From Thermoplasma volcanium GSS1 (GTDB lineage Archaea; Thermoplasmatota; Thermoplasmata; Thermoplasmatales; Thermoplasmataceae), in contig NC_002689.2 in assembly GCF_000011185.1 (NCBI RefSeq), positions 1,178,001-1,242,000 on the forward strand: 64,000 nt of DNA. Direction: 5' to 3'. The first letter of the stretch is position 1. Each line of letters opens with the position of its first letter. A program made the position numbers and the translations under genes. Below are positions 53,363 through 55,183 of the stretch, piece after piece. Under the pieces are notes generated by a model. It was not told where the DNA came from and searched no databases. It was given only the letters and a program-made list of their open reading frames with translations.

Positions 53363-53911
53363 ATGTTTCTTGAAGCTATAAGAGTTCCAAAAGACAGAAT
53401 TAAAGTAGTCATAGGCAAAGATGGCGAAGTTAAAAAGAAAATAGAGGAAATGGGAGAAGTAAAGCTGACGATAGACACCGCAGAGGCAGAGGTAAGTATT
53501 GATCAGCTAGGTGATGCTGTCAAATCGAGCATCGCCAAAAACGTCGTGCAAGCCATTGGCAGAGGATTTAATCCAGGAAAGGCCATGCTCCTCTTTGAAG
53601 AAAACATGCAATTGGTAATAATATCACTCAGAGAATTCGCAAAACCAGGGTCGAGCAAGATAACTCAAATCAAGGCTAGAGTGATAGGTACGGGAGGAAA
53701 AACTAGAGCTATAATCGAAGAGCTAACTGGATCTTACCTCTCGGTTTATGGGGATACGATATCCATAATAGGTGATTACCTGGCTGTAACGTATGCAGAA
53801 GAAGCGATAAACATGATAATAAACGGAAAGAAACACAGAACCGTCTATGCATTCCTTGAAAAGAGAGCTAGAGAGTTGAAGTACAAACGTATTGAGGAGT
53901 CATTCGGATGA
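53363..53911 (+). CDS. KH-domain RNA-binding protein, Pno1/Dim2 (Krr1) type
   Basis: A 182-residue protein with two KH domains. The first (residues about 2-75) contains VPKDRIKVVIGKDGEVKKKI, the second (about 90-170) ARVIGTGGKTRAIIEELTG and ends ALEKRAR-like (FLEKRARELKYKR). The second has the divergent loop of Pno1/Dim2, which helps 18S/16S rRNA 3' end maturation with the Nob1 nuclease and Rio1 kinase. A ggtgagatc ribosome binding site precedes the ATG at 53363; the extension to 53321 is unlikely. It faces rio1, with initiator tRNA-Met between. Confidence 0.88.
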   Translation: MFLEAIRVPKDRIKVVIGKDGEVKKKIEEMGEVKLTIDTAEAEVSIDQLGDAVKSSIAKNVVQAIGRGFNPGKAMLLFEENMQLVIISLREFAKPGSSKITQIKARVIGTGGKTRAIIEELTGSYLSVYGDTISIIGDYLAVTYAEEAINMIINGKKHRTVYAFLEKRARELKYKRIEESFG

Positions 53912-53951: not shown

Positions 53952-54026
53952 AGCGGGGTGGGGTAGTCAGGAGATCCCGATGGGCTCATAACCCGTAGAT
54001 CGATGGTTCAAATCCATCCCCCGCTA
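53952..54026 (+). tRNA. Initiator tRNA-Met (CAT)
   Basis: A 75-base cloverleaf with acceptor AGCGGGG (53952-53958) pairing with CCCCGCT. The A1-T72 pair, the three G-C pairs below the CTCATAA anticodon loop and the overall match to archaeal initiators mark it as initiator rather than elongator. A TATA-like cattatatctc lies about 27 bases upstream. CCA is not encoded. Confidence 0.95.
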
Positions 54027-54028
54027 TC

Positions 54029-54799
54029 TTAATCTTCTTGTTCTAAATTTTTAGGAATTGCATTCTTTATATCTTGGATCATCTCTTCAAAGCTGGTTTT
54101 AATCCCATGTTTTGAGAAGAAGGTCGATATATTTTTTATATCCCTCTTGAGGAACTCCGTTGCCATAGGATGATCTATATCCACGGCTTGCGCTAGATCT
54201 ATAAAATAAACCCTTCTTCTATGGTATAGTATGTTGTACTCGCTAAGATCAGAATGTACCAGCCTTGCAGAAAGCATCTTCTTAATTCCATCGAGCGTCA
54301 TGGTATATATCTCCTCGGTGACCTGAACATCCTTTAACTGGGGCGCAGGCTTTTCTTTTGTTCCAATATAACCTTCAACCAGTATGTTCTTGAAGAAACC
54401 AATTGGCCGTGGTACGGGCACGTGCTTTTCATATAAAGTAAGCATATTCGTATACTCTTTCCTTACCCACAATGAGATGATGCTCATTCTGTCAATGCGC
54501 TGCTTCACAAATCTCTGATCACCTTCTATGTATTCCCTTATGTTCATGAACTTGAGCGTAGACATCTTAAATACTTTTACTACAACGTATCTCTTGTCGC
54601 TGACTGCACGGAAAACTACAGACTCCTTGCCTGTAGATATTGGAAAATCGAGATAATCTATACTGTACCTTGAAAATGCGTACTTAATTGCTTCTAGAGT
54701 TCTACGATCAAAAACAAGGTCAAGGGTCTTTCTATCAAGGTTAGATCTGAAAGCAAATTCATCAAGTTTTATTAATTGTTTCAGGGCAGATTCATCTAT
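54029..54799 (-). CDS. rio1: Rio1 serine kinase, apparently starting at AUA
   Basis: A 256-residue Rio1-type atypical kinase acting in small-subunit maturation. Motifs are the N-terminal winged helix (LDRKTLDLVFDRRTLEAI near 22-40), the P-loop STGKESVVF near 59, the catalytic Lys in VVVKVFK near 77, EYTNMLTLYEKHVPVPRP, the catalytic loop LVHSDLSEYNIL near 178 and the metal site YFIDLAQAVDIDHP near 197. The first ATG (54565) would remove the P-loop and Lys. Upstream, 78 open codons with no ATG, GTG or TTG reach a TAA at 54803-54805. An ATA at 54799 has AGGTGGT 5 bases before it and is the best start. It lies 12 bases after aIF1A. Confidence 0.88.
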   Translation of the reverse strand: MDESALKQLIKLDEFAFRSNLDRKTLDLVFDRRTLEAIKYAFSRYSIDYLDFPISTGKESVVFRAVSDKRYVVVKVFKMSTLKFMNIREYIEGDQRFVKQRIDRMSIISLWVRKEYTNMLTLYEKHVPVPRPIGFFKNILVEGYIGTKEKPAPQLKDVQVTEEIYTMTLDGIKKMLSARLVHSDLSEYNILYHRRRVYFIDLAQAVDIDHPMATEFLKRDIKNISTFFSKHGIKTSFEEMIQDIKNAIPKNLEQED

Positions 54800-54811
54800 C
54801 TTTTACCACCT

Positions 54812-55183
54812 CTACTTGAAAATATCAATTACTTCAGGGAGCATATGATTTCTGCTGAGGTAGCTAGCCTGTGTCTTAGTGTACCTATAGACAACATCCG
54901 CTTTTTCGGGCTGGAACTCCCATGGCTTTACTATAACAAGATCCTTTTCCCTAATCCACATTCTCTTCCTCATCCTACCAGGGATCCTGGCATTTCTTGT
55001 ATATCCGTCTTCGCACATCACTGATAATCTAGACGCACCTTCCATCTTCTCGACAATTCCAAACATTTCCCCTTTTTTCTTGTTTGGAAGGATAACTCTC
55101 CCAAGTGATTCTTCTTCTTCATTAAATTGATCTTGATCGACGTTAACGTCCTTATCTTCGTCTTCAGTTTTATCTGGGCTCAT
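54812..55183 (-). CDS. eif1A: Translation initiation factor aIF1A
   Basis: A 123-residue factor with the OB-fold blocks GEMFGIVEKMEGASRLSVMC near residue 38, RNARIPGRMRKRMWIREKDL near 63 and VIVKPWEFQP near 83. The N-terminal 27 residues are an acidic tail (DEDKDVNVDQDQFNEEEE). It binds the ribosomal A site and assists initiator tRNA and start-site selection. A TTTTTATATC TATA-like box about 27 bases before the ATG separates it from the RNA polymerase operon. It is followed by rio1, a pairing common in archaea. Confidence 0.93.
   Translation of the reverse strand: MSPDKTEDEDKDVNVDQDQFNEEEESLGRVILPNKKKGEMFGIVEKMEGASRLSVMCEDGYTRNARIPGRMRKRMWIREKDLVIVKPWEFQPEKADVVYRYTKTQASYLSRNHMLPEVIDIFK

Follow-up and report, generated by a model that had tools for sequence, protein, structure and literature searches.

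The rio1 gene of Thermoplasma volcanium GSS1 very probably uses AUA as its native initiation codon, a reading that draws on comparison of the gene across the genus and the wider family. The codon follows a strong Shine-Dalgarno (SD) sequence, and both elements recur in all five Thermoplasma species compared. We also report, as a new observation, that g15, another genus of the same family, has no canonical start at rio1 and carries an invariant TTA at the same distance from its SD sequence. A literature search, mostly of open-access journals, found no prior report of AUA or UUA starts in archaea.

Data and comparisons

The window analysed here is a stretch of 64,000 nucleotides from contig NC_002689.2 of T. 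volcanium, and all coordinates refer to positions within it unless another source is named. A rio1 gene was identified in 58 of the 61 relatives and in 73 of the 77 family genomes, and its start region was compared across 71 of the latter. Open reading frames were also ranked by the strength of the coding signal upstream of their first canonical start in samples, rather than whole genomes, of T. volcanium (464 kb, 435 ORFs), a second Thermoplasma, G001 (160 kb, 152 ORFs), and g15 (~330 kb, 332 ORFs).

The rio1 reading frame and its predicted product

On the minus strand, the rio1 frame opens after an in-frame TAA (54803-54805), runs for 257 codons and ends at a TAA at 54031-54029; read from the ATA at 54797..54799, the coding sequence (54029..54799) comprises 256 codons and a stop. 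The order along this strand is the aIF1A stop TAG (54814-54812) and then AGGTGGT-AAAAG-ATA-GAT-GAA-TCT-GCC-CTG, in which the TAA closes the frame two codons before the ATA and the SD sequence AGGTGGT (54805..54811, minus strand) stands five bases from it, its GGTG beginning at -11. A first-pass annotation of this DNA had described just this arrangement, including the SD spacing and the lack of any ATG, GTG or TTG after the TAA, but its count of 78 sense codons before the first canonical start should read 79: that start is an ATG at codon 80 (Met80; 54563..54565, minus strand).

The translation matches the RIO domain PF01163 at 192.3 bits, above the curated cut-off of 22, and its best structural matches, the solved Rio1 structures 12ez and 1zp9, cover residues 19-246. 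Aligned to 12ez, it contains the P-loop STGKES, the catalytic lysine, the catalytic loop HSDLSEYN and the metal-binding motif IDLAQA. The P-loop (ISTGKESVVF) and the catalytic-lysine strand (VVVKVFK) both lie 5' of the first ATG, as the first-pass annotation had noted, so that a start upstream of Met80 is required to retain them. Codons 2-79 have dN of 0.03-0.10 with dS of 1.7 or saturated between divergent Thermoplasma pairs; such strong purifying selection indicates that this stretch is protein. Judged from its translation, the product is a complete, full-length archaeal Rio1, with predicted kinase/ATPase activity and a predicted role in 30S maturation. To call the gene essential, as had been done, is an overstatement, as rio1 has been deleted in Sulfolobus islandicus, giving a viable mutant that grows faster (PMC7744417).

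Conservation of the start region in Thermoplasma

A comparison of sister species, which the first-pass annotation had proposed as a check, places ATA in the identical alignment column in all five Thermoplasma, with no ATG in its place, followed in each by GAT-GA[AC]-TCN-GCN-CT[GC]. In all five there is no usable canonical start at this site, and the SD sequence keeps its 5-nt spacing, over a range in which silent-site divergence is near saturation (dS 1.7 to saturated in divergent pairs). In-frame stops lie at most 9 nt upstream of the ATA in three species (G000, which is T. volcanium, G001 and G003); in G002 and G004 a GTG of the rio1 frame, five codons 5' of the ATA, overlaps the aIF1A stop, but both genomes still possess the ATA and the SD sequence. 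From the in-frame stops to the SAL motif, no column other than the ATA has T as its middle base in every one of the five species, and a central U is the one base common to all bacterial start codons (PMC4611024). Where family members start rio1 with ATG, that codon too precedes the SAL motif, at almost the same position.

The invariance of the ATA is too weak to serve as stand-alone evidence for an AUA start, as judged from codon usage around it: 6 of the 15 invariant Ile columns of rio1, and 68 of 220 in the operon, are likewise all ATA. The CTG at the sixth codon, put forward earlier as a weaker start option, was rejected; it is present in T. volcanium and replaced by CTC in the other four species.

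Start codons of rio1 elsewhere in the family

Among the 71 family genomes rio1 starts with ATG in 59 and with GTG in three. ATG is the start in all 16 genera other than Thermoplasma, g15 and g10, and the 34 further genomes of the order from outside the family have ATG, or GTG in one case (G037). The three GTG starts belong to the three species of g10 (L036, L040 and L095) and represent a third departure from ATG within the family. A separate scan of genome contigs found no relative. In G006 (L038/L195, genus g3), a one-base length difference near the N-terminus of rio1 breaks the frame relative to sister species, possibly through a draft-assembly error.

In g15, all four species—represented by draft assemblies—lack ATG, GTG and TTG at the rio1 start and share the arrangement GGTGAT-5nt-TTA-GA[CGA]-AA[GA], in which the TTA, unchanged throughout, is as far from the SD sequence as the ATA is in Thermoplasma. 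An in-frame TGA lies within the SD sequence, three codons before the TTA, in all four genomes, and from that TGA to the SAL motif the TTA is the sole column with a central T. TTA is rare in g15 (402 of the 6,117 sampled Leu codons) and none of 19 invariant Leu columns in rio1 and aIF1A is all TTA across three genomes, so an invariant TTA is not what would be expected of an ordinary Leu codon. On the strength of these four draft genomes, rio1 of g15 seems to start at UUA. The two genera thus share a NUN codon at SD distance where no canonical start is available, and in each the codon without a 3' G is conserved (AUA in 5/5 Thermoplasma, UUA in 4/4 g15).

A tree of Rio1 and aIF1A puts Thermoplasma, g15 and g10 in three separate places, each fully supported. 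An AU test rejects Thermoplasma and g15 as one clade (p=0.036), a mild result with long branches in play.

Association with the Shine-Dalgarno sequence

GGTG begins exactly at -11 in nine of nine rio1 genes with AUA or UUA, and occurs at -14..-8 in none of the 57 family rio1 genes with ATG, so the odd starts are coupled to an SD sequence that is missing from ATG-started rio1. Fisher's exact p for this association (2.7e-11) is overstated, since the lineages amount to two events. The position is an ordinary one: -11 is the commonest SD position among the ATG genes of G001 and g15, and falls within the T. volcanium peak of -12..-9, although such an SD sequence is found in only ~10-14% of ATG genes (31/315, 14/101 and 20/202). 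The anti-SD sequence TGGATCACCTCC occurs once in each of the four genomes tested (G000, G001, G018 and G034). A search for a hairpin over the rio1 start was negative, six 80-nt stretches folding no better than shuffled sequences (z -1.4 to +1.1).

rio1 as an outlier among sampled genes

In all three samples rio1 ranked first on this measure of upstream coding signal. In T. volcanium it scored 19.3, the next of the 435 ORFs reaching 12.6, and in g15 it held places one and two. The next-ranked candidates that we inspected were mostly transposase-like or truncated and frameshifted ORFs, and none of the other flagged candidates inspected had an SD sequence at a near-cognate codon. Among 35 genes of the window with relatives in other Thermoplasma, rio1 is the only one to lose a long conserved N-terminus. 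A genome-wide habit of AUA or UUA initiation was thus not seen in the 435, 152 and 332 sampled ORFs or in the 35 window genes. Elsewhere in T. volcanium, a cobalamin-pathway methyltransferase-like ORF (L130:10615-11253; G000 ~970.6-971.3 kb) appears to have no in-frame N-terminal part, as though a frameshift had occurred.

Gene neighbourhood

The gene for translation initiation factor aIF1A (54812..55183, minus strand; PF01176, E=3.6e-24) lies upstream of rio1, its stop 12 nt before the AUA. Convergent with rio1 are an initiator tRNA-Met(CAU) gene found with ARAGORN (53952..54026, plus strand), with A1-U72 and GGG/CCC anticodon-stem pairs, and a gene for a Dim2/Pno1-type KH protein associated with 30S maturation (53363..53911, plus strand), which has KH_1, KH_KRR1_2nd and KH_PNO1_2nd matches. 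Together, aIF1A, Rio1, Dim2 and the initiator tRNA form one translation-initiation neighbourhood.

The tRNA-Met(CAU) gene adjoins rio1 convergently in all five Thermoplasma. Most other family genera checked, g15 included, have it on the rio1 strand, ~0.6-0.8 kb downstream of that gene, and the KH-tRNA block therefore seems to be inverted in Thermoplasma. The loci compared with the window for this arrangement were L006-L034, L136, L146 and L148. Where its sequence was examined, in Thermoplasma and g15, this tRNA is of the initiator type. The octamer AUAGAUGA (54792-54799, minus strand) includes, in all five Thermoplasma, an AUG of another frame that lies four bases on from the first base of the AUA; if ribosomes scan locally, this AUG could be a competitor of the AUA.

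Discussion

Initiation at AUA could proceed with ordinary components. The SD sequence would position the 30S subunit 12 nt after the end of aIF1A, and the usual initiator Met-tRNA (CAU) would pair with the first two bases of AUA, a C-A mismatch at the third being tolerated; Rio1 would then begin with Met. Such a start would be weak, rescued by the strong SD sequence, and sensitive to start-codon proofreading by aIF1/aIF1A. In bacteria, IF3 spares starts with a 3' G and discriminates against those without, AUA being a known, weak and IF3-discriminated start (PMC4611024), while archaeal aIF1 makes initiation complexes on non-AUG codons less stable (PMC6237735). As AUA and UUA both lack a 3' G, the behaviour of IF3 and aIF1 leads to the prediction that rio1 output would fall under strict proofreading. 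Evidence for the proofreading roles of archaeal aIF1 and aIF1A is mainly in vitro, and a genus-wide AUA together with a second-genus UUA in one conserved gene would provide a natural test of archaeal start-codon fidelity. If true, the g15 start would add UUA, a codon outside the NCBI table 11 set. There is a practical consequence as well: gene callers that accept ATG, GTG and TTG only truncate Thermoplasma Rio1 and remove ATP-binding residues; the first-pass annotation had foreseen a start at 54565 with loss of the catalytic lysine, and the first canonical codon is indeed there.

Other readings of the start region are improbable to differing degrees. The first-pass annotation had left the choice between a native AUA and an error in the base sequence; the former has gained from the comparison, and the latter can be set aside as having a negligible probability, because the ATA and its SD sequence are common to five Thermoplasma species, and four g15 genomes agree in the same way on TTA. 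Translation from Met80, with the upstream stretch untranslated, is extremely unlikely. Met80 is, in its favour, where the T. volcanium frame has its first ATG. However, other species have their first canonical start at a different position, ATG-started relatives include the upstream stretch, and codons 2-79, with the P-loop and catalytic-lysine strand, evolve as protein. Initiation further upstream is very unlikely too, whether at an ATG or GTG overlapping the aIF1A stop and followed by readthrough of stops, or as a readthrough fusion of aIF1A with Rio1. ATG AGG TGA (G001 and G003) and GTG AGG TGG TTA AGG ATA (G002 and G004) do occur in the rio1 frame, and aIF1A and rio1 share one frame in T. 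volcanium, but T. volcanium has a TAG where the upstream start would be, the in-frame stops vary in number and place, the frame relation of aIF1A to rio1 varies between species, and all four g15 genomes keep their TGA three codons before the TTA.

Initiation at an out-of-frame AUG, either that in AUAGAUGA or the GUGAUG at the SD sequence, followed by a frameshift, is similarly very unlikely. The presence of an AUG at +5 of the AUA codon in all five Thermoplasma is simply a product of the Ile-Asp-Asp/Glu coding; in T. volcanium the frame of this AUG ends after four codons, no slippery site recurs, and the AUG is missing in g15 L035. A-to-I editing of the third base would give AUI and UUI, to be read as AUG and UUG respectively, and it has some appeal in that each start equals a canonical codon save for an A in place of G at base 3, and in each the next base is G; we nevertheless consider it most improbable. 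To our knowledge, no mRNA A-to-I editing is known in archaea, which counts against it. Unedited AUA starts are, moreover, documented in bacteria (PMC4611024).

What an AUA start means for the cell is a separate question. The main rival to a regulatory role agrees that AUA is the start and differs only on function: AUG was lost by drift after a strong SD sequence had evolved, leaving an AUA without regulatory meaning. This we regard as somewhat the likelier account. In its favour, non-AUG starts go with stronger SD sequences across prokaryotes, such compensation being documented for GUG and UUG (PMC5622118), and the AUA and UUA rio1 genes carry an SD sequence missing from their ATG-started counterparts. 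Against it, one transition would be enough to turn ATA into ATG, but there are no reversions across the near-saturated divergence of five species, and a 3'-A start was reached in the same gene by two lineages. Moreover, of 209 K, E and Q codons ending in A in T. volcanium, only 22 keep that A in all five species, the Ile codons (68/220) being less striking; for a third-base A kept in 5/5, the neutral chance is 0.07-0.31 depending on codon class. The reversion argument thus gives modest support to selection on a weak start.

That the weakness of the AUA start is a selected regulatory feature is therefore only a tentative proposal, which we would put below even chances. We are marginally more reserved about its extended form, in which two genera independently acquired a rio1 start without a 3' G (AUA and UUA) together with a strong SD sequence, and Rio1 synthesis would read out the start-codon stringency of the 30S subunit, as an archaeal counterpart of infC linking 30S maturation (Rio1) to initiation (aIF1A and initiator tRNA).

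Compared with known systems, Thermoplasma rio1 resembles the SD-compensated GUG and UUG starts of prokaryotes (PMC5622118) in pairing a weaker start with a stronger SD sequence, but the codon in Thermoplasma and g15 has no 3' G at all. Starts of that kind are very rare, given that 61,358 ancestral AUG starts yielded two switches to CUG and one to AUU, with AUA and UUA absent from the switches counted (PMC5622118). The protein itself is conventional: it has the same RIO domain, catalytic motifs and length (~255 residues) as archaeal Rio1 such as that of Archaeoglobus fulgidus (PDB 1zp9), and its gene is unusual in the initiation codon only. The AUU start of infC, which encodes IF3 in E. coli and its relatives, serves in autoregulation. 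Like rio1, infC is a translation-machinery gene with an SD sequence and a start lacking a 3' G that is conserved among relatives. Unlike infC, rio1 is archaeal, uses AUA (UUA in g15) and encodes a 30S-maturation kinase rather than a fidelity factor; a control of the infC type is, for rio1, only a proposal. In Thermoplasma, rio1 stands directly after the gene of an initiation factor, aIF1A.
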